Positions 2,823 to 38,300 of a stretch of 64,000 nt of DNA are shown here, piece after piece. Within the stretch, counting starts at the first letter, position 1. The number at the start of each line of letters is the position of its first letter. The translations under genes were made by a program, and so were the position numbers. Source of the stretch: a virus; the IMG/VR virus record IMGVR_UViG_3300042478_001888, positions 1 to 64,000 of that record. One strand, 5' to 3'. The notes under the pieces are model-generated. The model did no database searches. It had not been told where the DNA came from and saw only the letters and a program-made list of their open reading frames with translations.

Positions 2823-2837
2823 AGTTGTAAGTATTAA

Positions 2838-2893
2838 AGGTGGTTAATGGTTAGTGGTTAATGGTTAGTGGTTAAATGTTAAGGGTTAAAGGT
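2838..2893. repeat. Tandem GGTTAA/GGTTAGT short repeats in a leader region
   Basis: A 14-base unit GGTTAATGGTTAGT occurs about twice in tandem, followed by degenerate GGTTAAA units. On the transcribed minus strand this reads as repeated TTAACC in the leader of the gene starting at 2822. Similar arrays precede other leftward starts. Confidence 0.7.
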
Positions 2894-2912
2894 GCAGTAT
2901 CATATTCATCTA

Positions 2913-3134
2913 CTAAATGTGTAAAAGGGTTGATTTTAGATGGTGTTCGGTTGCCTTGATATATCCGAGTAGGAAAAAGTTAAGATGCTCGTAGCCTAGG
3001 GAGGGGCTTATGCATATACCTTCCTTCGTGGCGTAGTAGTGTTTAATCTTTTTCCGCCTATCGTTGTGATACCATTCGTGTACCACTAGGCCGCATTTAT
3101 CGGCGGCGTTCTGGAGTGATTGCAGTTCGTTCAT
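2913..3134 (-). CDS. Small hypothetical protein
   Basis: A 73-residue protein (MNELQSLQNAADKCGLVVHEW) with several aromatic residues and a short basic stretch (NDRRKKIKHYY). Its leader contains TTAACCC repeats. No family recognised; probable small cytoplasmic early protein. Confidence 0.5.
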   Translation of the reverse strand: MNELQSLQNAADKCGLVVHEWYHNDRRKKIKHYYATKEGICISPSLGYEHLNFFLLGYIKATEHHLKSTLLHI

Positions 3135-3166
3135 AGGGTTAAGGGTTAATTTAAGGTTTGAATAAA

Positions 3167-3188
3167 GCGCCGGAATGGGTACCGGCGC
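3167..3188 (-). other. Intercistronic GC-rich hairpin carrying the GCGCCGAA motif
   Basis: GCGCCGG and CCGGCGC pair perfectly around an 8-nt loop, immediately followed on the plus strand by CGAAGG. There is no U-tract on the leftward transcript, so this is not a standard terminator. Very similar hairpins occur at 3894-3915 and 5240-5261, each between two leftward genes. Confidence 0.75.
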
Positions 3189-3194
3189 CGAAGG

Positions 3195-3425
3195 TTATAC
3201 ATCAAGGTTGAGGTTGCTTAAATCAATGTTCAGGTCTGCAAACTCGCAGGCTTTCACGTGGTAGTAGTTTGCTATTTTAGTTTGCTCCGGCCTTGTAAAA
3301 TTCCGCACGTTTACGGTCGTTTCAATTATCTGCTTATGCAGGGTTGAGAATTGACGCTCTGCAATGCCTAAAGCCTGTTGCAGTAAAGCAAATTGTTCTT
3401 CTGTTAATTTAATAGTTCGTGTCAT
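3195..3425 (-). CDS. Small helical hypothetical protein
   Basis: A 76-residue protein predicted mainly helical (LTEEQFALLQQALGIAERQF), lying between two intercistronic elements in the leftward operon. No recognised family. Inferred accessory protein. Confidence 0.5.
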   Translation of the reverse strand: MTRTIKLTEEQFALLQQALGIAERQFSTLHKQIIETTVNVRNFTRPEQTKIANYYHVKACEFADLNIDLSNLNLDV

Positions 3426-3437
3426 GGTGTTAATGGG

Positions 3438-3866
3438 TTAAAGGTTAAAATTATCTGCAAAGGAGTAATAATCCTCCTCGGTTAGAATAATGTGGTCAAG
3501 TACTTGGCAGTCAAAGAATGCTGCCATGTCTTTAATTTTCTTTGTTATGTCCTTGTCCTGTTGGCTTGGCGTAAGGTTCCCAGATGGGTGGTTGTGGGCT
3601 AAGATAACCCCATAGCACATTGTTTCGGCGATGTACTTGGCGATGATTTTAATATCAACATAGGTCCCGGCCACGCCGCCTTGGCTAATCTTTACGAAGC
3701 CTACTGTGCTGTTTGCTCGGTTGACTAGGAGCATAAAAAAGCTCTCGTAGATTCCAATATCATCGGAGTAAAACTGCCGGATAAATTCTTCTGCTGCTTT
3801 GCTAGTGGTTATCTTGACCTTTGGAAAGTCGGTTTTTGTTTTTTTGATGGTTAGTTCAGGTGTCAT
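3438..3866 (-). CDS. radC: RadC-like JAB-domain protein
   Basis: This 142-residue protein is nearly the bare RadC/JAB domain. The metal-binding motif HNHPSG lies at residues 91-96, with the downstream Asp near residue 104, and KISQGGVAGTYVD precedes it as in RadC proteins. The helix-hairpin-helix part of cellular RadC is absent. RadC proteins are common on phages and mobile elements, but their role (DNA repair or anti-defence) is unsettled. It is flanked upstream by the 3894-3915 hairpin. Confidence 0.88.
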   Translation of the reverse strand: MTPELTIKKTKTDFPKVKITTSKAAEEFIRQFYSDDIGIYESFFMLLVNRANSTVGFVKISQGGVAGTYVDIKIIAKYIAETMCYGVILAHNHPSGNLTPSQQDKDITKKIKDMAAFFDCQVLDHIILTEEDYYSFADNFNL

Positions 3867-3893
3867 GGTTATTTATTTAAGGTTTGAAAAGGA

Positions 3894-3915
3894 GCGCCGG
3901 TTTTTAGGCCGGCGC
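3894..3915 (-). other. Intercistronic GC-rich hairpin (second copy)
   Basis: GCGCCGG, loop TTTTTAGG, CCGGCGC, followed by CGAAAGGG. The surrounding bases also match the 5240-5261 copy. It lies between the clamp gene stop and the RadC start on the leftward transcript. Confidence 0.8.
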
Positions 3916-3928
3916 CGAAAGGGTTAAT

Positions 3929-5188
3929 TTAATCGTTGTTAATCATTACCGGCATTAACAAAGAGGTAAGGTTAAAGAGCGAAGCCCGCGACTCACCAAA
4001 GTAGTGGATTGTAACCTCGTCCGCCTCAATACTCTTTAGCACGTCGATAAGTTGCGCAGCATTGTACCCTATCTTAATACTTCCAGAGGCGGGTGCGGTG
4101 GCGGCAAAGTTCGTACCTCTGTCAAGGTCGGAGGCGCTTACATTCAGTCCTTCACCCTCGCAAGTCAATACCACTAGCTTTGTATCTTTGTGCGCTGCTT
4201 TAAGGGCATTTTCTAGCAAAGGTAAAAGCGCCTTTTTGCTAAAGGTTAAGGTCGATTCGGCGCTGTCTGGATTCGGCATGATTGCTTCATACTTTGGATA
4301 TATCGCATCAACCAACCATTCCCTTCCTAAAGTAACTCCAATATCTTCAAAGGTGGCGTAATCAGTATGTCCCTTAATTTGCGAATGTTTAAGAAGCTCT
4401 AGGGCTACCTTTGATAGAATCACCCCCTCGCTCTCAAATTGTGCCTCTAGGACGCGTAAACGGTGGGCATCGGTGGCGCAGATTTTACCATTAGCAAAGT
4501 AGGCGCCGGTCATTGCCACCCTCATTTCATCTTTGCCTAGGAACGTTTTGAGGGTGTCAAAAGCGTTAAGCGCGCCGGAGGTGATAAGTAGGTCGCCTTC
4601 TTTATATATATTAAAGACGTTATCGGTGGGCGTTACGCCTGCCTTCATTCCATTCTCAAAGGTGGCGATTCCTTCCTGAATGTTTACCGGTATGCCGTTG
4701 TCCTTAATAAACGAAGCGTCAATACTTACTTTGCCAAAGGTGGCGTCCATTTCGTAGTGAACCGGCCCTATCTTAGAGAAATAGCTTAGCACGTTACCCT
4801 CCAGGATTGCGTATGGTACCGCCTTGCTTATAGGTAAGATCCTGAACAGTTCTTTTACCCCAAACTTTGCGGAGCGCTTAGCTCGCGGAGGGGTTGGTGG
4901 CGTTGGTGGCGGTGTTGGCCTAGTTGGTGTTGGTGTTGGCCTAGTTGGTGTTGGTGGTGCATAGATAGGCGCCGAAACGACCTCAACAGTTGCTAAGGTA
5001 ATGGGCTGAGGGTTGCCGATTGCAGCGCGTATTTCAACCTCCTTTGTCTTTGAGGCAATCCAACCTGGGCCGCCTTTTAGGTAGGGGTTGTACTTTGCCC
5101 CTAGGCTTCGCAGCGTATCTTTTAGGGGTTTGGTGTCGCCATAAATTTTAATGGCTTTCTCCGAGTAGGTTTCAATTAAAATGTTCAT
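3929..5188 (-). CDS. Sliding-clamp-like protein fused to a small N-terminal domain
   Basis: This 419-residue protein has three parts. Residues 1-60 form a small domain with YGDTKPLKDTLRSLGAKYNP and GPGW. Residues 74-101 are a Pro/Thr linker of TPTRP-type repeats. Residues 105-419 resemble the DNA polymerase III beta clamp: ATDAHRLRV in the middle, a DAIYPKYEAIMP segment, and a C-terminal end SLLMPVMIN like the beta-clamp terminus. It would tether a polymerase or nuclease to DNA. A second clamp-like gene lies at 57630-58679. The linker suggests the N-terminal domain is a flexible recruiting module, which is inference. Confidence 0.8.
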   Translation of the reverse strand: MNILIETYSEKAIKIYGDTKPLKDTLRSLGAKYNPYLKGGPGWIASKTKEVEIRAAIGNPQPITLATVEVVSAPIYAPPTPTRPTPTPTRPTPPPTPPTPPRAKRSAKFGVKELFRILPISKAVPYAILEGNVLSYFSKIGPVHYEMDATFGKVSIDASFIKDNGIPVNIQEGIATFENGMKAGVTPTDNVFNIYKEGDLLITSGALNAFDTLKTFLGKDEMRVAMTGAYFANGKICATDAHRLRVLEAQFESEGVILSKVALELLKHSQIKGHTDYATFEDIGVTLGREWLVDAIYPKYEAIMPNPDSAESTLTFSKKALLPLLENALKAAHKDTKLVVLTCEGEGLNVSASDLDRGTNFAATAPASGSIKIGYNAAQLIDVLKSIEADEVTIHYFGESRASLFNLTSLLMPVMINND

Positions 5189-5194
5189 AGGTAA

Positions 5195-5235
5195 AGGATT
5201 AAAGGGTTAAAGGTTAAAGGGTTAAAGGTTTGAAA
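5195..5235. repeat. GGTTAAA tandem repeat in clamp-gene leader
   Basis: Four imperfect GGTTAAAG units lie just upstream of the clamp-gene ATG. On the mRNA they read CCTTTAACC. The same word occurs at 5825-5860, 2838-2893 and before several other leftward starts. Confidence 0.7.
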
Positions 5236-5239
5236 AAGA

Positions 5240-5261
5240 GCGCCGATTTTTAGGCCGGCGC
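5240..5261 (-). other. Intercistronic GC-rich hairpin (third copy)
   Basis: GCGCCG pairs with CGGCGC around a TTTTTAGG-containing loop and is followed by CGAAAAGG. This almost repeats the 3894-3915 element with its flanks, lying between the genes at 5275 and 5188. Confidence 0.78.
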
Positions 5262-5274
5262 CGAAAAGGTTAAT

Positions 5275-5820
5275 TTAGTTTTGACGATAGATAAAGTACT
5301 CGGTTCCGTTAACGGTTTCTTCGTTCTCTTGGCCGTTGTAAGGGTTAAGGAAGTGCCCACGTCCGTCCCACTGGATTGCTTCCTCAACTAGGGCATCTTC
5401 ATCGTCAACTAGGCTCAGGATTGCGTCGTTGTTGCTTTCACAGCGTCCATTGTTTTGGATTGCGTCAAACACTTCTAAATCTATGCCAGTGGCGGAAGCT
5501 AGGAAGTTAGGAGTAAAAGCCCACAAGGAGTCGAGAATATACTCCTTTGCTTTCTCGTCTGCTTCCTCGTCTGTTAGTACCAGATAATCCTCATCAAGCT
5601 CTGTCAGCTCGTTGCAATTATCTTTGCAGAATGTAAGGAAGTCCCGCGCGCCGCTTTCCTTAAAATCGGTTTGAGCTTCGTCTTCTTCACCCTCAAAGAT
5701 ATGAGCGGCGTTCTCTGTTTCAACGATAAAAAAATCGTTTTGCAGGTGCATTTGGAGTGCAATTATACGCTCCTGGGTTTCTGTTAAATGGTTCATGGTT
5801 TTTGGTGTTAAATGGTTCAT
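5275..5820 (-). CDS. Acidic conserved phage/plasmid-type protein
   Basis: A 181-residue, strongly acidic protein with the segments LTDEEADEKAKEYILDSLWAF and DGRGHFLNPYNG near its end, which I recognise as a conserved pattern in phages and conjugative elements without a known activity. An internal ATG at residue 9 repeats the first four residues (MNHL), and either start is possible. High acidity would suit a DNA mimic, but that is speculation. Confidence 0.6.
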   Translation of the reverse strand: MNHLTPKTMNHLTETQERIIALQMHLQNDFFIVETENAAHIFEGEEDEAQTDFKESGARDFLTFCKDNCNELTELDEDYLVLTDEEADEKAKEYILDSLWAFTPNFLASATGIDLEVFDAIQNNGRCESNNDAILSLVDDEDALVEEAIQWDGRGHFLNPYNGQENEETVNGTEYFIYRQN

Positions 5821-5868
5821 AATTGATAAAGGTTAAATGGTTAAATGGTTAAATGGTTATCGGATTTT

Positions 5869-6078
5869 TTAATCGCGCCGAAGGGCATTCCCTAAATTAG
5901 CGGCCAAAAAAATACAAAGTAAAGCGAGCAAAGAACTCATAAAGAGTAAAAACCAGTCTTCCTTCATTACCGCCCAATAGAGTACTTGCAAAAAGAACCC
6001 AAGGGCACCGGCAAAAAATAAAACGTAAATAAGCTGCTGAACTTTGCGGTTGAGGAATGTAAACAAGATTAAAAGCAT
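5869..6078 (-). CDS. Two-pass small membrane protein
   Basis: I chose the ATG at 6078 (MLLILFTFLNRKVQQ) because the longer frame overlaps the upstream gene and lacks a leader. The 69-residue product has two hydrophobic segments (IYVLFFAGALGFFLQVLYW and FLLFMSSLLALLCIFLAANL) and a basic end. It is probably inserted in the host inner membrane. Function unknown. Confidence 0.55.
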   Translation of the reverse strand: MLLILFTFLNRKVQQLIYVLFFAGALGFFLQVLYWAVMKEDWFLLFMSSLLALLCIFLAANLGNALRRD

Positions 6079-6088
6079 GGTTTTTGAA

Positions 6089-6355
6089 TTAAAGGGTTTG
6101 AATGAATGAAAAAAGATAGGCACCTGGGCGGAGTAGATATTCAGAGTACACGAGCTTGAAGCCTGCAACCTCTATTATTTTGCTGTCATCCCCAAAGTTC
6201 ACCGGCCAAGAGCTTTGTAAATATGCTCTCTCGCAGCCTGGGCATACTTTGTTAATTACTTTGGCAAAAATCCTATTTGCTTTCTCGTTTTTGTCCTTGG
6301 AAATGTAGCTCCAAGTTTTCGGTATTGGTTTGTCGCCTGTGGTGTAGGTTTTCAT
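6089..6355 (-). CDS. Hypothetical protein with Cys pair
   Basis: An 88-residue protein containing CPGC near residue 38, which could be half of a metal site. The start MKTYTTGDKPIPKTW follows a TTAACCC leader. No recognised family. Confidence 0.5.
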   Translation of the reverse strand: MKTYTTGDKPIPKTWSYISKDKNEKANRIFAKVINKVCPGCERAYLQSSWPVNFGDDSKIIEVAGFKLVYSEYLLRPGAYLFSFIQTL

Positions 6356-6411
6356 GTGTTTTTGGTATTAAGGGTTAAAGGTTTCTGAATTATTTTAGGG
6401 CGCCGAAAGGC

Positions 6412-6642
6412 TTAAATGTAAGATACATTCCCAAACCGGTCATACTTATACTTAATAGTAACGCCCAAGGAATCAGTAAGGGATACAACCCGATCCTTTT
6501 TATCGTAAACTCTATTACTAAAGTAACCGGTCGAAGCTTCAAAGCGGGTGCAGTTGCCGCGCTCATCATATTGCCAAAAGAATGTAATGCCGTCAACCGT
6601 TTGGCTGATTCGTTGGCCGTTTGCGTTTCTGATTGCGTTCAT
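6412..6642 (-). CDS. YD-repeat (RHS-like) miniprotein
   Basis: This 76-residue protein consists almost entirely of YD-type repeats: FFWQYDERGN, NRVYDKKDRVV and YKYDRFGNV at a spacing of roughly 20 residues. YD repeats normally form the huge beta-barrel shell of RHS/teneurin toxins; a stand-alone three-repeat protein is unusual. It has its own promoter at 6671-6678 and is the first gene left of the gene-free region. A role in binding carbohydrate or a host RHS protein is inference only. Confidence 0.65.
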   Translation of the reverse strand: MNAIRNANGQRISQTVDGITFFWQYDERGNCTRFEASTGYFSNRVYDKKDRVVSLTDSLGVTIKYKYDRFGNVSYI

Positions 6643-6670
6643 GGTTTTTGATTTTGATTATTGAACAATA

Positions 6671-6678
6671 CAAATGTA
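6671..6678 (-). promoter_or_regulatory. Bacteroidetes-type -7 box TACATTTG
   Basis: The minus strand reads TACATTTG, an exact TAnnTTTG match, ending 28 nt upstream of the ATG at 6642. It probably drives the leftward genes from the YD-repeat protein onward. Confidence 0.65.
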
Positions 6679-7017
6679 CGAAGAAAAACGAGACTTGCAA
6701 GTATATTTCCAAAAAAAATACACTTTTTTTTAATCTTTTTTTGAAAGCTACCTATTTACAAGGGATGCAGAACGATAATAATTTTTGCAAAGTGTACATT
6801 TTTTTTGAATTTGAAGGTAAAAAGGTATGGGTTGGGGGGGTGGTGGATAGGGAAAAAGTGAACGGTTGGCAACACTCAGGCATCAAAACAGGTGCAATTT
6901 TGCCAACTGTTGCATCCCTGGTGCACGTTCAATGGAGTTTTTTTGCAACCAACATGCATCCGAATAACATTAACGAAACGAACAAAAGGGAAACGTTATG
7001 GCGTAAAGATACACGCA

Positions 7018-7182
7018 TGCCCATGTGTGCGCTCATGTGTGTGCGTGTGCGTGCGTGCGCGCGTAGGTGTGTGCGTGTGTGTGCGTGCGTGGGTGAGGGG
7101 TTTACTTTCGCGTTTCTTTTCGCGTGGGTGCGTGCGTGTGGGTGCGTGCGTGTGTGCGTGTGCGCGTGTGGGTGGGGTGGGG
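7018..7182. repeat. Alternating GT/GC purine-pyrimidine tract
   Basis: About 165 bases are composed almost entirely of GTGTGCGTGC-type steps on the plus strand, interrupted once by CTTTCGCGTTTCTTTTCGCG near 7105-7125. Such alternating sequence can adopt Z-DNA. It contrasts sharply with the rest of the window. Confidence 0.9.
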
Positions 7183-7251
7183 TGCAAGGCCGCCGGCCCT
7201 TTGGCGCGGGGGCAGGCGCGCTGGATATGTACGATACACCGGGAACACAAA

Positions 7252-7311
7252 GGGATAAGCTGTTTACCACCCCCCTTTACCGCACCCCAAGGGGGATAAG
7301 CTGTTTACCAC
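7252..7311. repeat. Two 19-bp direct repeats GGGATAAGCTGTTTACCAC
   Basis: Identical copies lie at 7252-7270 and 7293-7311, 41 bp apart, with further partial words (CTTTACC, TTTACCAC) to 7375. Same-strand spacing of about four helical turns is iteron-like. Confidence 0.8.
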
Positions 7312-7523
7312 AACCCCAAGGCTCTTTACCCCGCCCCCTTTACCACAACCCTTTGCCAAACCCAAGGCTTCTTTACCTTCCCCCAAGGGCTGTTTGGCGG
7401 CTGTTTGCTTTTCTCTGGGTTACCTTGTCTTTTGGTTACCTTATTGGGTTCTCTGGGGGGTGGGTGTTGATGGGGGGGGTGTTTTTTTGGTAGGGGTGCT
7501 TTTCGGCGCGGTTGGGTAATGGG

Positions 7524-7769
7524 TTATTTTTTGGAAGATTTCCCTCCCTTGCCGTTCCTTGCCCTATTGGTGCTTTTAGCTTCGTTTACGAGCTTCCCAG
7601 ACTTGGTATGGGACTTATCCATGCCTTTAGGTGCTGGGTTGGCTCTATTGGCTTTATTTAGGGCTGCACGATACTTTCTACGCTCTGGGGTGGAGTGGTA
7701 TTCTTTGTTATAGGCGTTTTTCTTCTTTCGGGCCTCTGGGTTTTGCTTGAAGTATTCGGCTGATTTCAT
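7524..7769 (-). CDS. Small highly basic phage protein
   Basis: An 81-residue protein, very rich in Lys, Arg and Asn, opening MKSAEYFKQNPEARKKKNAY. I recognise this style (a PEARKKKxxYNKEYH helix) from many phage genomes, where it is uncharacterised; it probably binds nucleic acid. The promoter at 7774-7781 ends four bases before the ATG, predicting a leaderless mRNA. A palindrome at 7805-7821 may control it. Confidence 0.65.
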   Translation of the reverse strand: MKSAEYFKQNPEARKKKNAYNKEYHSTPERRKYRAALNKANRANPAPKGMDKSHTKSGKLVNEAKSTNRARNGKGGKSSKK

Positions 7770-7773
7770 GCTA

Positions 7774-7781
7774 CAAAGATA
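7774..7781 (-). promoter_or_regulatory. -7 box TATCTTTG, leaderless-type
   Basis: The minus-strand TATCTTTG fits TAnnTTTG exactly and ends only four bases before the ATG at 7769, so the transcript should begin at or very near the start codon. Confidence 0.65.
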
Positions 7782-7804
7782 AGCCTTTCGGCCAAATTGC
7801 CCTT

Positions 7805-7821
7805 TTGGAACGATATTCCAA
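7805..7821. promoter_or_regulatory. Palindrome TTGGAA-N5-TTCCAA, possible operator
   Basis: A perfect 6-bp inverted repeat with spacer CGATA lies about two dozen bases upstream of the -7 box at 7774-7781, a position suited to repressor or activator binding. No second copy was noticed. Confidence 0.45.
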
Positions 7822-7916
7822 TTTTATATTAAATGTCTATCCCAAAAGCACAAAAACGAAAAGGGGGGTTTTATACAAAAATTCCCGATGCCAGCCTTTT
7901 TTATTTGCTTTTTTTA

Positions 7917-8075
7917 TTAATTGTTAACAAATGGAAAGATGTCGTGGGGTTCGAGTTGTAGCTGTTCAACAAGAATCTTTATCCCTTCAATGGCTTGGAG
8001 AACTGAGCAGTCTAGGTGATACTCCACAGTCATTTTATCCCCTTCCTGTTCAAATTTGATTAGTAGGTGCTGCAT
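7917..8075 (-). CDS. Short ORF, 52 residues
   Basis: An ATG at 8075 inside the last codons of the upstream gene begins a 52-residue frame, MQHLLIKFEQEGDKMTVEYH, ending FPFVNN. The 26-bp overlap, natural composition and otherwise empty space support it. It resembles small acidic phage proteins but no family is assigned. Confidence 0.45.
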   Translation of the reverse strand: MQHLLIKFEQEGDKMTVEYHLDCSVLQAIEGIKILVEQLQLEPHDIFPFVNN

Positions 8076-8289
8076 TTATTGAATCGCATAAATGTTTGGC
8101 TAGATCGTAATCTTGCTGGGTTTCATACTTGTGGCTGGGGGTAGGCTTCCCCCACACCCTTAGCCATCTTTGGGAAGGGGCAGTGCCCAGGTTGGTGTAG
8201 AACTCTATAACGCTTACCTTGTCTCCAGAGGTTATTTCTAGCTCTGTGCCTAGGTAGTTGTTGTCTAGGGGAAGGATTCTAGCTCTCAT
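8050..8289 (-). CDS. Small hypothetical protein
   Basis: A 79-residue protein beginning MRARILPLDNNYLGTELEI, overlapping the stop of the phosphoesterase gene by 4 nt and therefore coupled to it. Contains WLRVWGKPTPSHKY; no family recognised. Confidence 0.5.
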   Translation of the reverse strand: MRARILPLDNNYLGTELEITSGDKVSVIEFYTNLGTAPSQRWLRVWGKPTPSHKYETQQDYDLAKHLCDSINAAPTNQI

Positions 8290-9323
8290 CGTACTTTACG
8301 GTTATCAATGCGAAAGTTTTCAACGCTGAAATCGCCATCTTCATCAATCTCAACAATCGCAGCCCCGTGATTCCATTTCGTGTATGCGAATGGGCGGTAT
8401 GCTGGTTGCAAGTCGCAAAGGCAACCCGTAGAAAAGCAAGCAACTCCTTTGCTGTTCAGGTCGCTTTCGTGATGCTCCGATGTTTGGTGGTTGTGGCCAG
8501 CCAATACAGATGCCTTACCCCGCAGAAACAATCCCCGTGCTGGGTTTACCGGGCTGAATATGCTATCGCCAAATTCGTGGCCATGTAGTACACTTAGCTT
8601 GCCAAACTTGGCGTGTTGGCGGCTGTCGATTAACTCAATATCAAGTTCATCAAGTCCCAATGCGGCCTTCAGTTGAAGCCCCGGCAGGGTAATCAACTCA
8701 GGTGCGTTTTGAAGTATGTACCTATCCCAGCGGTCTTCGTGGTTGCCCAGCTTGTAGAAAACAGGCAGCCCAAGGCTTACAAGGCCAGCCAAGAAGTCCC
8801 GAACCATTTGCACCTCAACGGGGGCCGACATCAACGCTGGGTCTTTTTCCCATCGGCTAATCTTAGCAAAGTCAATAACATCGCCGTTTAGGTATATCGC
8901 ATCAACGCCGTTTTTGAACCCGTAGTCGATAGCCGTTTCGATTGCTGGCAGTTCGTGGTATGGGAAATGAAGGTCGGACAAAACCAAAGGCTTGCGGATG
9001 TTGTTCGGCAGATGCCATACCTCTTTGCTGGTCTTTTCCCCTCGGCCCATGAACGCTTGCATGTACTCGCTTGGCTTCATTTGCTCAGGGTTGTATAGGT
9101 TTTCCCGCAACGACCCGCTGGCTGTTGCAAAGTCTTTTAGCCTGTCGCCTGCCGCACCCGTTCGGTAGCGGATTGAACATCGCACCCTTTCAACCTCTTG
9201 ATTCGTTTGCTCAAACGCACCCGGGTTTTCCATTACAATTTTGCGGGCTAATGTTCGTTTGAAGAAGCCCGGTTCTTGGGTATCAACGTAGCTGTCTATG
9301 ATTTTTACTTGTTGTTCGGTCAT
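8286..9323 (-). CDS. Calcineurin-like metallophosphoesterase
   Basis: This 345-residue protein carries the full two-metal phosphoesterase motif series: SDLHFP at 116-121, GDVIDF near 147, GNHEDR near 195, HGHEFG near 247 and GHNHQTSE near 277. Residues 1-100 form an additional helical region with a possible HTH-like character. It could hydrolyse a nucleotide, nucleic acid or protein phosphate. It is not closely like SbcD or T4 gp47 to my eye, although an SbcC-like ATPase is encoded at 60730-61980. Box TATCTTAG at 9340-9347 lies 17 nt upstream. Confidence 0.85.
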   Translation of the reverse strand: MTEQQVKIIDSYVDTQEPGFFKRTLARKIVMENPGAFEQTNQEVERVRCSIRYRTGAAGDRLKDFATASGSLRENLYNPEQMKPSEYMQAFMGRGEKTSKEVWHLPNNIRKPLVLSDLHFPYHELPAIETAIDYGFKNGVDAIYLNGDVIDFAKISRWEKDPALMSAPVEVQMVRDFLAGLVSLGLPVFYKLGNHEDRWDRYILQNAPELITLPGLQLKAALGLDELDIELIDSRQHAKFGKLSVLHGHEFGDSIFSPVNPARGLFLRGKASVLAGHNHQTSEHHESDLNSKGVACFSTGCLCDLQPAYRPFAYTKWNHGAAIVEIDEDGDFSVENFRIDNRKVR

Positions 9324-9339
9324 AGGTTTTTTTTGGGGA

Positions 9340-9347
9340 CTAAGATA
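9340..9347 (-). promoter_or_regulatory. Weak -7 box TATCTTAG upstream of phosphoesterase gene
   Basis: One mismatch to TAnnTTTG. It sits immediately after the terminator at 9351-9390, so transcription of the phosphoesterase gene would otherwise depend on read-through. Confidence 0.4.
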
Positions 9348-9350
9348 TGC

Positions 9351-9390
9351 AAAAAAAAACCAACCCCCACTTTTTCAAGATGGGGGCTGG
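9351..9390 (-). terminator. Intrinsic terminator, leftward
   Basis: On the minus strand a 9-bp stem CCAGCCCCC/GGGGGTTGG (one G-T pair) is followed by a run of nine T. It lies upstream of the gene starting at 9323, so it ends a separate short transcript or acts as an attenuator. Confidence 0.8.
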
Positions 9391-9406
9391 TAAAGACGAC
9401 AGGAGA
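9351..9406 (-). ncRNA. Predicted short RNA (about 55 nt) between promoter and terminator
   Basis: A perfect TATCTTTG box at 9412-9419 points leftward, and within about 20 nt of the expected start begins a strong terminator hairpin (CCAGCCCCC paired with GGGGGTTGG) followed by nine T. No start codon with an open frame fits inside. It is either a small RNA or a leader attenuator for the phosphoesterase gene. Confidence 0.5.
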
Positions 9407-10351: not shown

Positions 10352-10472
10352 ATAGCCGAAGACAGGATTCGAACCTGTATGAAATTATGCTTTAGTGTAC
10401 CATCATGTGTTTCCACTTAGATACAAAGTTAATTTCTTTCTTAGCGTCTACCAATTCCGCCACCTGACTATG
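10352..10472 (-). tRNA. Degenerate tRNA-Leu-like sequence
   Basis: On the minus strand a classic leucine D-arm GCGGAATTGGTAGACGC and a perfect T-arm ACAGGTTCGAATCCTGT are followed by CTTCGGCT, the usual tRNA-Leu 3' acceptor strand. The 5' acceptor should read GCCGAAG but reads AGTCAGG, and no normal anticodon loop with U33 can be drawn in the 65 nt between the arms. An alternative CATAGTC/GGCTATG pairing is out of register. I take it as a decayed or rearranged tRNA, possibly an integration site remnant. Confidence 0.5.
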
Positions 10473-11829: not shown

Positions 11830-12125
11830 TGACCTTCCCCTGCATAGGTTGTGGTGCGTGTTGCCGAAGGGTTGGTAGCATACAAAAGTTCCCCGAAGAC
11901 CACCCTCTACACTTTCCCTACAAGAACACTAATGGTGTGTGTGAAAACCTTGTAGATAATCAGTGTAAGGTGTATAATGACAGGCCGTTAGTGTGTAATG
12001 TTGAGAAGCTCCGAGAGTTTTTAGGCGCCGAAAAGGAATCCTTTTACCAAGAAAACATCAAGTATTGTCGTATCTTTGCCAAAGAAGACGGCATAGATTA
12101 TGATAATCATAGACAAATCCCCTGA
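11829..12125 (+). CDS. YkgJ-type cysteine-cluster protein
   Basis: The product opens MTFPCIGCGACCRR, the CxxCxxCC cluster typical of YkgJ-family putative Zn/Fe-chelating proteins, and has further Cys in CENL, QCKVYNDRP and VCNVEKLREF. I start it at 11829, where ATG overlaps the upstream stop; an in-frame start 12 nt earlier is possible. It occupies the place where a terminase small subunit might be expected but shows no TerS features. Confidence 0.75.
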   Translation: MTFPCIGCGACCRRVGSIQKFPEDHPLHFPYKNTNGVCENLVDNQCKVYNDRPLVCNVEKLREFLGAEKESFYQENIKYCRIFAKEDGIDYDNHRQIP

Positions 12126-13422
12126 GAAAAAGTCTGCCCCCTACATCTGGCAAGACCCAGAGGTATCAAAAATGACCAAGAAGCAAGAAATCGCTTGGAG
12201 GGAAGAAGAGATACGAAGGTGGCGAGAAGGGTACAACGGCATTATGCCTTCCCACTATTTCGCCCTAAGCCAAGGCTTCATCAAGCTCCCATCAGGGAAA
12301 ACCGTAAGGCCTTGGTGGAGGGATTGGGACGCTGCCTTGCACGAACAATACGAGAACGATAGGAAGAAACACAACTCCCTATATGTCTTTAAGCGTAGGC
12401 GATACGCCCTTACCACATACTTTGTTGGCTTTGAGCCGTTGCGCATAGCCCTTACCGATAAAGGTTCGGTGTGTGGCTTTACCTCTTGCGATGTCCCTCG
12501 TGGCAACACCGCGTACAGGGAGAAGCTAATGGTAGCCTTTAGCAACTTTGATGCTCAGTGGAACTACACCAACCTAGACGCTAAAGACTTGAAGGATTTG
12601 GAGAAGGATAATGGCTTGCCGGATTGGGAAGTGTTTCGCACTGCCCCTGGAACGAGGGACGGCACGAAGCTTAGGATTCAGTTTTTAAAGAAGGAAAAGG
12701 TAGGTACGCTAGAGAAGTTTCGGGAAACTACCGATATTAGCGAAATAACCTATGCGCAGACCTCTAGGAAGGAAAGCGATGCTGCCGCCTTTGAGGGTTT
12801 TACCATGAACTATTTGTTTGTAGATGAGTTTTTCCTTCACCCATACGCAAATAGGGTGTATGCTTCGGCGGAGGCTTCCCTTTCAGATGGCTTTGTGAGA
12901 ACTGGAATGTTTATCACTGGCGGTTCTTGTGGGGAGATGTCCCATCAAGGTATTGCCAATGCCAGAAGGGTTATCAAAGACAGCACCGATGGGAGCAAGG
13001 AGAGTGTGTTCTTTATCCCCGGTTATGCTTGTGTGGATAAAGCCCCAGAGTTTGATGAGTTTGGAAATGAGACCGGCAAGATAGTTTCCTTCATGCATGG
13101 CAACGCTGGGCATCACTATGTTGGCTCTAGGAGAATACACCAGCCAGCATACAGCGATGAGAAAAAGGCTAGGGATTATATCCTAAGCACTAGGGAGAAG
13201 TTATCAAGAAGCAGCGATCCAACAAAGTTTCGTCAGTTTATGAAAGCCTATCCAATTACTTTGGACGAGTTGCTAGAGGCCAGTGGCGATAGTTTGCTCT
13301 CTGATGATATTATGGAGTATGCTAGGAGGCAGAAGAAGGCTATCCTAAACCAAAAGGACAAGGCGTTTATCGAGTATAAGTTCAAGCAGATAGATGGTCA
13401 GCTTAAAATCGTGCCGTTATGA
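12100..13422 (+). CDS. terL: Terminase large subunit, ATPase part
   Basis: This 440-residue protein has the terminase motor pattern: an N-terminal SHYFALSQGFIKLPSG segment, a Walker A-like FKRRRYALTTYF near 96-107, Walker B MNYLFVDEFF near 234-243, and a following TGGS coupling segment. It lacks the RuvC-like nuclease half that normally follows. The next gene, overlapping as ATGA, supplies it. Together they would cut and pump DNA into the prohead. Confidence 0.85.
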   Translation: MIIIDKSPEKKSAPYIWQDPEVSKMTKKQEIAWREEEIRRWREGYNGIMPSHYFALSQGFIKLPSGKTVRPWWRDWDAALHEQYENDRKKHNSLYVFKRRRYALTTYFVGFEPLRIALTDKGSVCGFTSCDVPRGNTAYREKLMVAFSNFDAQWNYTNLDAKDLKDLEKDNGLPDWEVFRTAPGTRDGTKLRIQFLKKEKVGTLEKFRETTDISEITYAQTSRKESDAAAFEGFTMNYLFVDEFFLHPYANRVYASAEASLSDGFVRTGMFITGGSCGEMSHQGIANARRVIKDSTDGSKESVFFIPGYACVDKAPEFDEFGNETGKIVSFMHGNAGHHYVGSRRIHQPAYSDEKKARDYILSTREKLSRSSDPTKFRQFMKAYPITLDELLEASGDSLLSDDIMEYARRQKKAILNQKDKAFIEYKFKQIDGQLKIVPL

Positions 13423-14192
13423 AGACACTAAGTAAGTTAATGATACTAGAACACCCTCAGGCTGATGGGATTTATTACATGGGCACTGACCCTATACCTT
13501 TTGGAGATAGGGGGCAGGCACACCTAGAGACTGAGGAGCGAAGTAAACAATGCTCTGTGATTATTCGGGAGAACCCAGAGAATGAAAAGGCTCCCTATCC
13601 TGTGGCGTATTACCTTGCTAGGACTAATGATGTGGACTTTGTGTTTAATGAGACCTTTGCTTTGCAGAAGGCTTATAATGATTGCAAGAACAACTTAGAG
13701 CGTAATGCTGGGGGTGTGTTTATGCAGAGGTATGATGATTCGGGGTTGAGCAGGTATTTAAGCCATTATCCCTATTCGGCGCTTTTGGCTAATTGGCGGA
13801 ATGCCAAGCTAGGGAAAGAAAAGAAAAGGCTTAGAGGCTGGAACAACGATAACAGCACCAAAGGGCCAGCAATCAAAGTATTGGTGGAATGGATAATCTA
13901 TGGCATGGATTACTGCTGGGGATATGAGATTATTGAAGACATTGAAAAGTTGGGGGTAGAGAATACCGATATTGCCTGGGCGCTTATCGCTGCCCTGTTA
14001 GACTGGAAGCACCACTACAACATCAGGGAGATTAAGTACCAAGAGCAGAAGCCAATCTACAAGACTGTGTATGTGAGTGAGGGCGGCAGGCCAGTGGCGA
14101 AAAGAATTAAACTAAGGGGTATCCAAGGCCACGAGGGTATAGACATGGACTTGAGGCTTACCCACAACCCAAAGTCAGATGGATTTTTTTAA
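13419..14192 (+). CDS. Terminase nuclease part (RuvC/RNase H-like fold)
   Basis: This 257-residue protein starts with strands leading to GTDPIPFGD (Asp24) and later has ENTDIAWALIAALLDW, where the Asp would complete the acidic metal site of a terminase nuclease. It directly follows and overlaps the ATPase ORF by ATGA. Normal TerL carries both parts in one chain of about 450-700 residues, so this looks like a split terminase rather than truncation. Confidence 0.72.
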   Translation: MKTLSKLMILEHPQADGIYYMGTDPIPFGDRGQAHLETEERSKQCSVIIRENPENEKAPYPVAYYLARTNDVDFVFNETFALQKAYNDCKNNLERNAGGVFMQRYDDSGLSRYLSHYPYSALLANWRNAKLGKEKKRLRGWNNDNSTKGPAIKVLVEWIIYGMDYCWGYEIIEDIEKLGVENTDIAWALIAALLDWKHHYNIREIKYQEQKPIYKTVYVSEGGRPVAKRIKLRGIQGHEGIDMDLRLTHNPKSDGFF

Positions 14193-31600: not shown

Positions 31601-33071
31601 TCAAAGTACGGTAAGCCCCGAAATGCGTATTGATACAGGCCAAGTTGCCCCAGCTTCTTTCCCCGCCACTCCTACTAACGATTACAAGGCTTGGCTAACT
31701 AACTTAACGTTAGATTCTACGGAATATGATAATAGTTACAACTTCCATGCAATAGGTAATTCTTTTGGGTTTAGCACGAATAGAACTTTCATTGACAAGT
31801 TCCCCTCTCGCGTGATATGGAGTGATTTGAAGCCTGATGGTAGTTTCTTTGATTCATACAGGTTTTTCCCTCCCGGCCAGTTCAATGACTATTCAAGGAA
31901 TTATGGGCCGGTGGTACACATAGAAACTCTTGATGATGAGTTTTTTGTAATGCAGCACAGGAATTTCAGCAGGGAGTATTTCAACACTACTGGCACGATA
32001 ACCTCTGACACCGATGAGTTGGTGATATTGGGTAATGCTGGTGTTCTTGCTCGCAAGGGTGCTACGATTACCTCTTATGGTTCGCTTCACAAGTGGTCTT
32101 GCGTTAAGGGGCGTAGTGCTTCTGGCCGAGATGTGTTGTATTGGTTCAATGCTGAGAATGGTTTATTCTTAAAGTATGGCGGAAGGGGTGCAGAGCCATT
32201 AAGTATGGCGAAGGGGTTAAACCAGTGGTTCAATGAGAACAGCAAATTTGTTTACAGCCACAACACTCCGGCAGCAGGCAGGGGGATATGTGGTGGTTGG
32301 AACGAGCGTTTCCAAGAGTTGCGTTATACCTTTAGGGGTTACAAGAATAGCCCTGAGTGGGGTGTAGGTAATACTTACGATAAGGGTGATGTGGTTATTT
32401 ATGGCGGTAATGGGTTTGTTCCTGTGCAGTTGTATTTGTCTAGGGTTGACCATATTAGTTCTCCTGCGAACATTCCTGGGGGAAACACTGTAACGTGGGA
32501 GGCTATTTCCGAAAAAGATTCACGTTATTACAATGTATTTACATTGGTGTATAATGAAATGAAAGATGGCTTTACGAGTTTCCTATCTCCGAAGCCGTTG
32601 ATATATCATCGTTGGAGGAATAATTTATTGACACAGCGTTATGGTGAGTGGAGTCAGTATCCAAATTACTTAGAGAATTTCGGTGATTACAACACGTGGT
32701 ATTCTTCTGAGGAGGGGGAGTTGGCCGAAGATGGTTTTGTCATTCCGGTTATCAATTACAATAGCGATGTGATTAAGAAGTTTTCGGCGTTGTATGTTGA
32801 TAGTGAGGTTGCTCCTGACAGGGTTGAGTTTTTCACTCCTGAGCATGAGAGTTTTTTGGTGTTGAGTGATTTTGAGAGTAGGGAAGGTATGTGGGTAAGC
32901 ACTATTAAAAACGATATTTTAACCGCGCCGAATGGCATAAACGATGGGGATACAAGTCGCTTATTTGGTAGGTACTTACTGGTCAAGGTTTTCTTTTCTC
33001 CCAAAAAATTCCAATCTTTGCGTAACATAAGAGTGCGCTTACAATTTAATTCACGATATTTACAAACATAG
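28611..33071 (+). CDS. Large nozzle/muzzle-type tail protein
   Basis: A 1486-residue beta-rich protein. The N-terminus (HNIKGTLDLDSEYGDV, then GNYVGAENVQF) matches the opening pattern of tail nozzle or stabilisation proteins of short-tailed phages of Bacteroidetes. A VPHGLSAGDEVRL module lies near residues 218-230. The C-terminal third (WNERFQELRYTFRGYK) is also typical. It would form the distal tube through which DNA and internal proteins leave. Confidence 0.65.
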   Translation: MANILPVQHNIKGTLDLDSEYGDVRSGNYVGAENVQFISKEGNESIPKQPFIGNKFLFDKGRVEVQNKRFRLYLALGDTFDFQVFGTNNVTQLSSLFVVPSNASYAAYRSAIQGFLTSAGLTSNITIGIDYLDIEITSVATYDYQFRVSNASAGVRVIITQESIANNFTGFLKDIGSYDLNGDLFIFSTPQEELPEEVTVSGVNSAGVVTTIVPHGLSAGDEVRLAGSGANDGILLVNVVLSATTFSYHYPAGVAGVGGIITKNYTGVGEIGVAQFDEQAETGTYTRLLRSKEFGFNTLHQIDCDGEINPLGKSLYFNQYKYNPPRVFYYLGNYVLNGALTYVNSENRYEYGTIDLETRTILNIQTAKLDLVSVTEGGNVKAGNKQYFIRFLTSEDALSGTDYHAFTGNVNIYKGSDTSDPNKIAGNVSGTLTTKKVTLRVENAQPELFGYVELCVAEWFGDAVTFSTVRREEFDESTFEIEHNGFEVATPLSTEEVLRLNSLIKNIGGQRIVDNRLVMHDITYEERKDFRAWAEKINHTIIKEEITGNGFVENKVYGGYQNPQNTFRFVGYKWFETYRFGIRLYLKEGGVTETFWIDDIKFDITPTNVTTPNRRVGTPPPNYELNVQALDDNFFVPGVEFSNIDLEYLINGDRIKDVVSKIEFMRVELKDDTKEVLLNGMGILSFYGIYEEGSHRFGNLNATFSQANPTYQARYPFPFFSGQNIFTVDVGGVPTAPFNTNGYRNMINTEAAGGLKRGIVDTFGLFIISNDVVFGKTEIERAPGDQIINFGRPMSEPAYPINGISGKNFIRDFRLLNMGVDGLPAPYFHDIEDAKILPRDSNVIMDRNGVSPGPTLYVSNAKSDQNTGASFDSFERTYVFESSIAISLVNSLTSPLPSPALPLSFTNSNEGVYWVSYYRPKVYTTPDDSKFGARDKTVYISTGISNLINQNSSATISSKVFGGDTFIGRMQLKLWNHLTETQGPDYIDETYAMSFVSQSTVSPEMRIDTGQVAPASFPATPTNDYKAWLTNLTLDSTEYDNSYNFHAIGNSFGFSTNRTFIDKFPSRVIWSDLKPDGSFFDSYRFFPPGQFNDYSRNYGPVVHIETLDDEFFVMQHRNFSREYFNTTGTITSDTDELVILGNAGVLARKGATITSYGSLHKWSCVKGRSASGRDVLYWFNAENGLFLKYGGRGAEPLSMAKGLNQWFNENSKFVYSHNTPAAGRGICGGWNERFQELRYTFRGYKNSPEWGVGNTYDKGDVVIYGGNGFVPVQLYLSRVDHISSPANIPGGNTVTWEAISEKDSRYYNVFTLVYNEMKDGFTSFLSPKPLIYHRWRNNLLTQRYGEWSQYPNYLENFGDYNTWYSSEEGELAEDGFVIPVINYNSDVIKKFSALYVDSEVAPDRVEFFTPEHESFLVLSDFESREGMWVSTIKNDILTAPNGINDGDTSRLFGRYLLVKVFFSPKKFQSLRNIRVRLQFNSRYLQT

Positions 33072-33722: not shown

Positions 33723-35345
33723 ATGACACCACTAGTAGCAGGTATAGCATTAACAGGAAAAGCCCCAGTGTACGAAAACGTATATATGGCAGGGCTTAAA
33801 CAAAAGGCAGCTGGTGAGGCGGCGGCGGCGAAGGAAAAAAACAAGCAGTTAGAAGACATAAGAGCTGCTATAACGATTCCAAAGGGAGGTGTTCATAACT
33901 CCCTCGTTAATGAGGTTAAGGATTTGGCTGCTGAGACTTTCTTAAATGCCACTAAAGCTGTTGAGTCAGACCCAACAAGGGGGATAAATAAGGCTATGGA
34001 AATGATTCTTGAATTTCAGTCTAAATTGAATGTGTATCAAAACACAAGCAAAGCGCTAGAAAAAATTGAAACGCCTGAATACAGTAAGAATTATTTTAGT
34101 TCTCCGCAATTTGTTCAGGGTATTGGAACAAAGAATTTCAAAGAGGTAGAAAGCGACCAAGCGATTGTCGAAAATGCTAGAAAAGCGGGTATAAATATTC
34201 AAAGGGCAAATGGTCTTCCTGTTGTTTCTACAATAGACTATCCAAGGTTTGACCCTGCTAAGCCTTTTATTGATTGGCAAAAAGCCACTGTTGCTAAATA
34301 TGAAGCAGAGGTTGGAGACCCTACAAAATTAGGTAAGAGTTTGCGTCAAGAGATATTAAAGCGGGTTAATGAGCAAGAGGCAATGGCATATTTAGAAGGT
34401 AGTGCCGCAGATGATAACGAGGTAGCCGCTTGGCAGAATAAACATAACATCGACATAACAACTTCTGAAGGAAGGAAAGCGGCTGCGCAGAGATTTTTGT
34501 ACACGCAAGAAAAGGCTCAAACTTCTGGGCCTGGATTTAATATTAATCTTGGCCCTGGAAGCCAAACAACAACCTCTCCGGTTGTTTCTGAAACTTCTCT
34601 AACTGCTAACACTAGTTTTAACTGGAGTCCATCATCAAGGTCTGATAACTCTGGCGAGTACTACGTTTTACAATTTGCGGAAGGGTTTGGCAACAAGAAT
34701 CTTGTCGCTGGTGATGGAAGGGGAAATCCATTAAAGTTTAAAAGCAGTAAAGAGGCAGAAGAATATCTTGTCAATAATAGCAAGTTTGATTATGAAGCTA
34801 TTAAAACTTTAAACTTAGACGTTCCTTCTGTTGGCATTACAATTCCTGCTGGTGAGAAGTCCTTTACTATTGGTGAGGAGGGTTCTAATACTGGTTATGG
34901 TGAAAAGGTTGAGTCTAATACTTTCAATATGAAAGTTAATAGGTTGGAAACTGTGGAAACTTATACTGGTGATAAGATTTTGACTGTGGGTTTATTTAGA
35001 ATGGAAAAGGGGGACATTATACCTAAAGAAGTATCAAAATACGTTCCTTCTGATAAAACAGAAAAAAGGGTTTTTGTTGTTGGGGAGGTAGAAACTTCAT
35101 ATAAAACAAATGTAGGGGCAAGAGATAAGGGTGGTACTGTGTATGTCCCTGCTACTAAGCAAAACATAAGCGCCATTATTTCAAAGCTTCCTTCAACAGA
35201 AAAGGAAACAAGACGGATGCTTGAAGAAATTAATACTGGCAAGCAAAAGCTTGGTGATGGTAAGATACTTGGCGCAGCAACGAAGGGCGCCGAAAGGCAA
35301 CCTAAGAGTGGTTTTAGTTTGTTAGAATTTGATAATATAGCATAA
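33723..35345 (+). CDS. Internal virion / cargo protein candidate
   Basis: A 540-residue protein with a helical N-terminal half, a Ser/Thr-rich middle (about 265-305) and a beta-rich C-terminal half. It lies immediately before the 2887-residue protein, overlapping it by one base (TAATG). No catalytic motif found. Likely packaged and ejected with the genome. Confidence 0.5.
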   Translation: MTPLVAGIALTGKAPVYENVYMAGLKQKAAGEAAAAKEKNKQLEDIRAAITIPKGGVHNSLVNEVKDLAAETFLNATKAVESDPTRGINKAMEMILEFQSKLNVYQNTSKALEKIETPEYSKNYFSSPQFVQGIGTKNFKEVESDQAIVENARKAGINIQRANGLPVVSTIDYPRFDPAKPFIDWQKATVAKYEAEVGDPTKLGKSLRQEILKRVNEQEAMAYLEGSAADDNEVAAWQNKHNIDITTSEGRKAAAQRFLYTQEKAQTSGPGFNINLGPGSQTTTSPVVSETSLTANTSFNWSPSSRSDNSGEYYVLQFAEGFGNKNLVAGDGRGNPLKFKSSKEAEEYLVNNSKFDYEAIKTLNLDVPSVGITIPAGEKSFTIGEEGSNTGYGEKVESNTFNMKVNRLETVETYTGDKILTVGLFRMEKGDIIPKEVSKYVPSDKTEKRVFVVGEVETSYKTNVGARDKGGTVYVPATKQNISAIISKLPSTEKETRRMLEEINTGKQKLGDGKILGAATKGAERQPKSGFSLLEFDNIA

Positions 35346-38300
35346 TGAGTAAAGAGATACTAAAAGGCATATTTGAGGAGAACATAGCTCCTGTGCGTGA
35401 AGACATAACCTTTGAGGGTTGGGTAGATAAGATTAGGGATAACGAGGAGTACAAGGTGGGTTTATTTGAGAACTACGTCCAGCCGAGTATGCCTGAGGCC
35501 ACATTTGAGGAGTTTAATTCTAATGCGTTTGGAAGCCTGGGAAAGGTGGAGGCCCCACTTGCTGGGGCGCAATCCGAAGAAAGTTTTTCCCCTACCGAAT
35601 CCGTATCGAGCGAATTTGAGGTAGGGCCACCTGCTGGGGGAACGCCTCCCGGTGTTGAGCCTAAGGGTGAGCCGGTTGCTGAGGCTGCTGCGTTGGTTGG
35701 GGATGTTGGCTCAGAGGGTGAGCCTACGATTATTGGGCAGGAGTTAGATCCTTACACGATTGTTGAGAAGGACGATAGGAATTTCTTTGAGCGTCTTTTT
35801 GGCGAGGATCGTTATCGCAGGGTAACGGAGCGTGCGGTGGAAACGATACCGGCTTTGACTAGGTTATTTGGCAAGGCTGCTGCGAAGGATGTTCAGAAAG
35901 AGGTAAATGATTTAGGTAGGGCTATGGAGGCTGACCCTGAGTTTGTGATTAAGGCTTCGCAGAATGGTCTTTTCACTACGAACAATTTAGCCACGTATTT
36001 AAGCCAGGAGGCTGCCGGGGATAAGAAGGGCGCCGAAGAGATAAATATGTTTTTAGAAAAGGGTGCAACGGGCAAGACTACTCAGTTTGAAAGGTTCAAG
36101 ACGCTATATGCTCCAATCGAAAAAGAGCGCAACGAGGCTATACAAAAAGAGTTATTATCCAACAGAGATTATGTAGCGTTAAGGGGAAAGATAGATGCTG
36201 AGTTTAATAGTCAGCGAGTAGGTGTTGATGAGAAGTATGATTTTAAGGCTTTGATGGGTGAGGAGTTTAAGGTTGGCGAGAAGGAATTATTGGGCAAGTA
36301 CGAATCTGCCACGCTTGCTTTACCTATGCAATTAGAAACCAAGGCGAGTGAGTTGAAGTTTGACTATCAGACCAAGGTGAATAATGGGCAGATGGGTGTT
36401 AACGAAGCCAATGAAGGCTTAAAGCGTGATTTAGATGCTTATGGTGCGGAGTTGCAGAAGCAGAGTGATGAGGCGTTGGGGGAGTATAATTCCGGCGTTA
36501 GCGCCTTGGCCGAAAGGGTACAAAAGGGTGTTAAGGATAAGCCAGAGTTCAAGGCTTACATGGACGAGTTGAACGACTTGCGTAATGGGGTTGTTGAGAG
36601 TTTTTCTGGCGATTACCAAAAGATTCAGCAGGCGGTGTTCAACAATATTGCCCCTAAGTACAACTCTAAGATTGAGAGTGCTATAACGAATAGCATGAAG
36701 GGTGAAACTCCTTTGCTTAACAAGTCTGGGGTAAAGGGTGATATTGACAAGATTTTGGGAAATAGGGGTTGGGATTACTTACCTTTCGACCAGAAGAAGG
36801 CTGCGTTGGATACTATGTTTGGCACTGCCTTATCTAAGTTGAAGCGTAGCGGTGTTGAGATAAACGATGGTGTTGTTGCTGGGTTGCGTGCTGAGTTTGA
36901 CGATGCGTTTATGGATAGGGCGTATTTTACCAAGAAGGGTACTCCTTCTTTGTTTATGGTAAAGACGCGTGCTATTGAGGAGGCTGAACGTCTTGACGAG
37001 ATGCTTAAAGAGCGTGAGGCAAAGACTGGCACTAAGACGTACACTTCTGGGATATATGGTTCGGAGTTTGGCGTTGGCGGTATGGGTTATGATGATACTG
37101 ACGTTCAGGAGTTGCGTTTGGCGAGGGAAAAGTTACAGGAGATAATTGAGATGCCTGAAACGATGTCGGATAATGAGTGGTCGAATTTTTGGAATGGATT
37201 AACTTCGGGGAAGGTTGTTGATTATTTACCATTTGTTTCTGGGTTAAAGAATTTGAGTGGCACGTTGGCGTTGTATCGTGCTGTGGGTAAGGACACTGAA
37301 TCTGCCCGATATTTGAAGAACGCCGAAGCGTTAAATTCCACATACAAAAATATGTATGAGGTAAACAACATGGCTTCGGATTGGTATAGGGCTGGTAGGG
37401 GTACTGCCGAGAGTTTGCCTTTTATGATGGAGTTTGCTGCCACCGCAGGGATAGGTAGTGGCGTAAGGATAGCAACTGAAAAGGTTGCTGTAAAGTTGCT
37501 TGGCAAACAGGCAGAAACGATGGTTGGCAAGTCGTTTAAGGTTCTTGCTGGAACGCTTGTTAGTTCGTTAGCGCAAACCACGTTAAACCCTCAGCGTTAT
37601 GTAGATGAAACGTTGAAGCGTATGACGCCCCAGATGACTATTGCGTTTTCTCCTGAGGGTGATGATTTGGTTGCCATGTTAGACAGCAGTGATGCTGAGG
37701 GTGGCTTTGAGGCTGCGTTAAAAGGTTTTGGTGTAACCGCTTCCGAGTATTTCTCTGAGGGGTTAGGTTTTGCGGGAGCGAGGGCAATGAAAGCGTTGGG
37801 GAGTAAGATGTTGCAGAACGAGTTTTTGAAGAAGGCGTATGTGGGTTGGTATATGAGCAAGTTCAATTTAGATACACCTACTGCGTTTAAGAAGATTGCG
37901 GAGATGGGTGGTTGGAATGGATTTTTGATGGAGTTTGGCGAAGAGCTTGTAAACATACCGTTGACCAATTTGATTACTGGTGATGCGAAGGTAATGGAGG
38001 GCATCATTAAGGACGGGGAGTTTGATACTGAGAACTTGGCCGATATTGCTCGCACCTTATTACCTATTAGCCTTGCTGGTGGTTCAGTTAGTTTGGGTGG
38101 TTTAGCTATCAACAAAATAGCCCCTGAGGGTGTTACGGTAACGTATAGGGACATTAACAACCTGCCTACTACCGAAACCATTAACAAGGGTGTTTGGGAT
38201 GCTGTAACTGAGGTTATGAAGTCTCCTTCCAAGGTGCGTGATTTTATTGCGAATGAGTTACCTAAGTTAAAGGTAGATGGTAAGGGTAGGGAGTTAGTAA

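Follow-up and report, generated by a model that had tools for sequence, protein, structure and literature searches.

The 881-bp interval at positions 6643-7523 is a real, partly conserved DNA control region with a promoter, an alternating purine-pyrimidine tract and a repeat array. With a probability of about 0.4, we read it as a cis-acting control locus in which a leftward promoter is combined with an initiator-binding platform that has a role as replication origin. No single rival is as likely as this origin reading; the interval may be an origin, although proof of this cannot come from sequence alone.

The window, i.e., the whole stretch of DNA that was analyzed, comprised 64,000 nucleotides (bases 1-64000 of a 65,909-bp IMG/VR virus record, called G000). 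A 46-kb record of the same phage (G005, >99.9% identical to G000) joined both ends of G000 and contained a 3,696-bp segment, J, that is missing from G000. Together, the two records resulted in a circle of ~69.5 kb, in which rightward genes occupy ~10.5 to 52.1 kb and the genes of the remainder point leftward. The leftward block contains clamp, primase-like, helicase and exonuclease genes and is, in the best explanation, the early/replication block of the phage. The TAnnTTTG promoter box described below and a BT4734-like primase domain suggest that the host belongs to the phylum Bacteroidota. No similarity to the phage was found among GenBank phages. The insert TTTCGCGTTTCTTTTCGCG of the alternating tract occurred in only four IMG/VR contigs, namely G005, G001 (L031), G003 (L084) and G002 (L016), and the contigs of two further relatives, G004 (L086) and G006 (L165), stop in or just before the gap. 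Six contigs overlap as pieces of one circle and have scattered ends and no terminal repeats; two of the six (G003 and G004) end inside the gap and the others end elsewhere.

Several other features of the genome were observed. Sliding-clamp-like proteins are encoded by two different genes (3929-5188 and 57630-58679, both phrog_947), and a 2887-aa protein at 35345-44008 takes up about one eighth of the genome. In the leftward gene gaps within 2823-6411, a GGCGCCG hairpin followed by CCTTTAACC repeats was present directly before the start codon of several genes, an arrangement that resembles a repeated gene-cassette leader. The metallophosphoesterase gene at 8286-9323 (- strand) showed 93-96% DNA identity to its counterparts in eleven further viral contigs (L003-L013), which matched nothing else in the compared stretch 5501-9400, and it is probably a single gene that was recently exchanged. 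A tRNA-like remnant at 10353-10452 (- strand), detected by ARAGORN only at a relaxed threshold, had D-arm and T-arm motifs and no clear anticodon stem; it is situated between the HNH endonuclease and serine recombinase genes. The terminase large subunit may be encoded by two genes, as 13419-14192 matched the C-terminal part of phrog_6681; the other candidate half (12100-13422) gave no clear match.

The gap is the longest on the phage circle, followed by gaps of 537 and 454 bp. A protein-coding gene on either strand was ruled out by the scores of the ORFs of 84-286 aa overlapping 6643-7493, all of which were negative (-13 to -38) in a codon-usage model trained on this phage, and by non-triplet indels of 1, 2, 7 and 10 nt among relatives. 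The preliminary description of this region as a long gene-free zone was therefore confirmed, and the features it had listed are real and well beyond chance. An Rfam search of the window gave no match to a known structured RNA, and stable hairpins were rejected for five gap segments with DNA-fold z-scores from -0.8 to +0.5. The gap and its parts are as follows:

6412-6642, - strand: left flanking gene, 76 aa, weak phrog_10385 match
6643-7523, unstranded: non-coding locus as a whole, bordered on the left by the start of 6412-6642 (-) and on the right by the 3' end of 7524-7769 (-)
6671-6700, - strand: candidate for a leftward promoter of Bacteroidota type, TTG-N19-TACATTTG, ahead of gene 6412-6642
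6701-6820, unstranded: A/T-rich flank containing poly-A and poly-T and, at 6710-6728 / 6789-6807, an imperfect inverted repeat of 19 nt
6829-6852, + strand: G-quadruplex-type motif
6871-7012, unstranded: spacer B, mixed sequence without significant fold
7013-7190, unstranded: alternating purine-pyrimidine (GT/GC) tract, Z-DNA-prone
7106-7124, unstranded: invariant insert within the tract
7252-7270, + strand: 19-bp repeat, copy 1
7293-7311, + strand: 19-bp repeat, copy 2, identical to copy 1 and 41 bp apart from it
7263-7377, + strand: iteron-like array of six TTTACC words, three of which read as a DnaA-box-like variant
7418-7440, + strand: two GGTTACC words, 16 bp apart, with more GTTACC words at the matching site of L031 and L016
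7446-7479, + strand: G-rich quadruplex-type motif
7524-7769, - strand: right flanking gene, phrog_6437 family, encoding a basic protein with invariant D-x-S-H ... N-R-A-R

The phrog_6437 protein had no PDB fold match, and its identification as an HNH nuclease was dropped for want of fold support. In distant phages that carry the phrog_6437 gene, the alternating tract was absent.

The left edge of the gap showed the arrangement of a Bacteroidota sigma-A promoter, with a TAnnTTTG -7 box and a TTG ~19 bp upstream, placed before a gene. TAnnTTTG is the -7 box of the flavobacterial sigma-A (PMC9723704). Judged by eye, the box was also present at the matching place in L031 and L084 (TAGGTTTG) and in L086 (TACGTTTG), and in L016 it took a form one base shorter; the bare promoter pattern showed no genome-wide enrichment. 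The adjoining flank is 74% AT, is among the two most AT-rich 140-bp stretches and contains, as had been described, poly-A and poly-T in four runs of 7-8 nt (A8 at 6711, T8 at 6724, T7 at 6736 and T8 at 6799). This flank, for which opening of the DNA had been suggested, is not the least stable DNA of the genome (6699-6758 ranked 7th at 60 bp and fell outside the top 10 at 100 and 150 bp), and its left end is the promoter candidate. An exceptionally unstable unwinding element beside the repeats was thus not found; the flank is ~440 bp from the array.

In the 65.9-kb record, strict alternation of purines and pyrimidines extends furthest in four runs of 32, 29, 25 and 13 nt, each of them within 7034-7170; no other run is longer than 12 nt. 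Measured over 180 bp, the alternation was 0.78 in the tract, compared with 0.47 on average (sd 0.046) and with 0.61 as the highest value elsewhere, so that its earlier characterization as extreme was justified. Against L016, the most divergent relative that spans it, the tract showed 91% identity, compared with 69% for the left spacer and 55% for the right array. Alignment identity is inflated by low-complexity sequence, but the stretch 7106-7195 had very few base differences to L016, and this included non-repetitive sequence. As a check for selection on alternation itself, transitions and transversions in the tract were counted; an excess of transitions was not clear versus L031 (21 to 17) and was modest versus L016 (12 to 4). 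Spacer B was 79% identical to L031, and the fold z-score of 6840-6960 was -0.5. Overall, the same layout of elements is found at the same place in L031, L084 and L016, with changes in the repeat units. The identity to L031 was ~79% over 6643-7390 and 97-100% beyond 7391, a jump that seems to mark a recombination junction inside the gap.

To the right of the tract, the duplicated 19-bp repeat that had been reported was recovered as an exact pair of GGGATAAGCTGTTTACCAC. Its 15-base core was found in other viruses in 60 contigs, as single copies except in this group, and this spread would be about the chance level for so large a collection. Clustered direct repeats were also formed by TTTACC, which starts at 7263, 7276, 7304, 7325, 7339 and 7372, with irregular spacing (13, 28, 21, 14 and 33 bp). 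These six words in 115 bp compare with at most three per 120 bp in 200 shuffles. The earlier notion of C-rich words applies to the repeat block, while the rest of the gap is G-rich on the + strand, with the quadruplex-type motifs at 6829 and 7446. Three of the six words read TTTACCAC. Six perfect copies of TTTACCAC were present at the matching place in G001 and likewise in G003, compared with at most two TTWWCCAC per 150 bp in shuffles. In L016 the array was rewritten and consisted of one TTTACCAC and three GGTAAA words in the opposite orientation.

A stand-alone DnaA domain IV protein of 115 aa is encoded in the J segment (L107:11744-12091, - strand; 31744-32091 in G005), outside the window, ~9 kb from the gap and not adjacent to it. 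The protein scored 34.2 bits against Pfam Bac_DnaA_C (cutoff 31.5) and had phmmer matches to 1L8Q, 3PVP and 1J1V. Its AlphaFold model (pLDDT 88) was aligned by Foldseek to 3PVP and 1J1V, the Mycobacterium tuberculosis and Escherichia coli DnaA-box complexes, with TM scores of 0.75-0.76 and a probability of 1.00, so that sequence and predicted fold both place it in this family. Using tblastn and comparison of loci, the protein was found in the phage (G005 copy) and in five of five relatives, with 46-97% identity among aligned copies, and IMG/VR searches retrieved it from no other contig. The L016 protein was 85% identical despite the rewritten array.

This protein is a candidate initiator that could bind the DnaA-box-like repeats. 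The repeats resemble DnaA boxes (TTTACCAC compared with TTATNCAC), of which CAC is the conserved core, and positions 3 and 4 distinguish TTTACCAC from TTATCCAC. A cluster of TTATNCACA-type boxes was not found in the gap, nor was any TTATCCACA. Within the box, E. coli DnaA recognizes the 3' TnCACA through its recognition helix and, in the minor groove, TTA through Arg399 (PMC5742627). TTTACCAC retains most of this 3' part except the T at position 4, a resemblance that is suggestive and not a demonstration. Another DnaA-box-like site, at 2016-2210, was discarded as it appears to be coding.

The cumulative GC skew reached its minimum at ~2.7 kb in G000 and at ~1.6-1.8 kb (matching coordinates) in G001, G002, G003 and G004, that is, 4-6 kb to the left of the gap and not at 6.7-7.5 kb; the maximum was near 52.4 kb. 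No switch was therefore seen at or near the locus in a skew that is partly confounded by gene direction. In the third-position skew, the + strand was already G-rich between 2.9 and 9.3 kb, where genes are leftward, and, for this reason, the switch is not simply the change in gene direction at 10.4 kb. As lytic phages can initiate replication at more than one site and skew does not locate origins reliably, these data lower the origin reading without excluding it. A second array, with three copies of TTAACCAC at 2840-2893 in the form (TTAACCACTAACCA)n, is closer to the skew minimum, and the stretch 1600-2900 with the minimum and this array is a second origin candidate. The proposal in the preliminary description that the region binds an initiator and serves as an origin was thus supported in part: the repeats are real and a DnaA domain IV is encoded, but the minimum of the GC skew, the test that the description itself had named, is elsewhere and the repeat unit is not kept in L016.

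In the mechanism that we propose for the origin reading, the left edge of the gap would act as promoter for the leftward genes and the right half, with the TTTACC array and the long alternating tract, as a DNA-binding platform at which, most likely, replication of the phage DNA would be initiated. The repeats would be bound by a phage protein, for which the stand-alone DnaA domain IV is the best candidate, and superhelical strain would be taken up by the alternating tract. Leftward transcription from the A/T-rich promoter would assist in opening the strands, on which the phage primase/helicase and the host replisome could then load. Counted in favor of an origin were the longest non-coding gap, the kept layout, the conservation of the tract relative to its neighbors, the clustering of TTTACC, the DnaA domain IV gene, the 3' part of TTTACCAC and the replication genes of the leftward block. 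Counted against it were the skew minimum, the rewritten L016 array, the second array nearer the minimum, the reading of TTTACCAC in only half of the words, the distance and ordinary stability of the A/T flank and the non-adjacent DnaA-like gene.

A purely transcriptional control region, in which a sigma-A-type leftward promoter is preceded by DNA that resembles operators and buffers topology but takes no part in replication, is possible, if on balance doubtful. The repeats would then be the target of a regulator, perhaps of the DnaA-like protein in the role of transcription factor, and the tract would relax negative supercoils behind the polymerase. This is consistent with the promoter and with the comparable box that relatives have at this position, with the use of DnaA-family domains as regulators and with the leftward direction of both flanking genes, by which the gap separates transcription units. 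The size of the gap argues for more than this, as the upstream signals of other leftward genes fit into gaps of 50-285 bp, and the repeats and tract are situated 310-700 bp upstream of the promoter.

It is unlikely that the gap is a recombination-prone module boundary of low-complexity, slippage-prone DNA with little function beyond the promoter. The identity jump to L031, the variation of repeat numbers and units and of the genes left of the gap among relatives, and the two contigs ending within it point in this direction, but the order of elements is retained and the tract with its 19-bp insert is better conserved in L016 than its neighbors. Those contig ends would also fit a packaging initiation (pac) or cohesive-end (cos) site, as would the terminase region 4.6 kb to the right and the family of the next gene, phrog_6437, which in certain other phages is located 2-3 kb upstream of a portal or terminase gene. 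Such a site is very improbable given the circle formed by the six contigs; moreover, phrog_6437 adjoins exonucleases in other loci, which weakens the packaging link, its protein has no HNH fold match, and methyltransferase, recombinase, HNH and metallophosphoesterase genes lie between the gap and the terminase.

To our knowledge, few origins are known for uncultured Bacteroidota-type phages. Confirmation of the origin reading would mean that a DnaA-like protein without a motor starts or steers the replication of a phage, and it would provide a conserved alternating purine-pyrimidine tract of a bacterial virus with a role that can be tested. It is rather unlikely that the locus represents an undescribed origin layout, in which a DnaA DNA-binding domain lacking AAA+ acts on TTTACCAC iterons and a conserved Z-DNA-prone tract lies between the array and the strand-opening site. 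A limited literature search found no report linking an alternating or Z-DNA tract to a phage origin.

Compared with known systems, the locus shares with oriC-type origins a DnaA-box-like array, an A/T-rich stretch in the same gap and a DnaA domain IV encoded by the replicon. It differs from them in that its words are TTTACCAC and not TTATNCACA, the unwinding candidate is ~440 bp off and of ordinary stability, the candidate initiator has no AAA+ domain, the locus is off the skew minimum and a long alternating tract lies in between. Short non-coding direct repeats are shared with the iteron origins of plasmids, satellites and lambdoid phages (e.g., the PLE origin with RepA, PMC7145576), but here their spacing is irregular, the unit differs between relatives and no initiator gene adjoins. 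With Bacteroidota sigma-A promoters (TAnnTTTG -7) the locus has in common the TTG-N19-TACATTTG upstream of a leftward gene, although this accounts for only 30 of the 881 bp. Like other Z-DNA-prone alternating tracts, that of the phage has 25-32-nt runs of strict alternation; unlike them, it is phage-borne and conserved in place.
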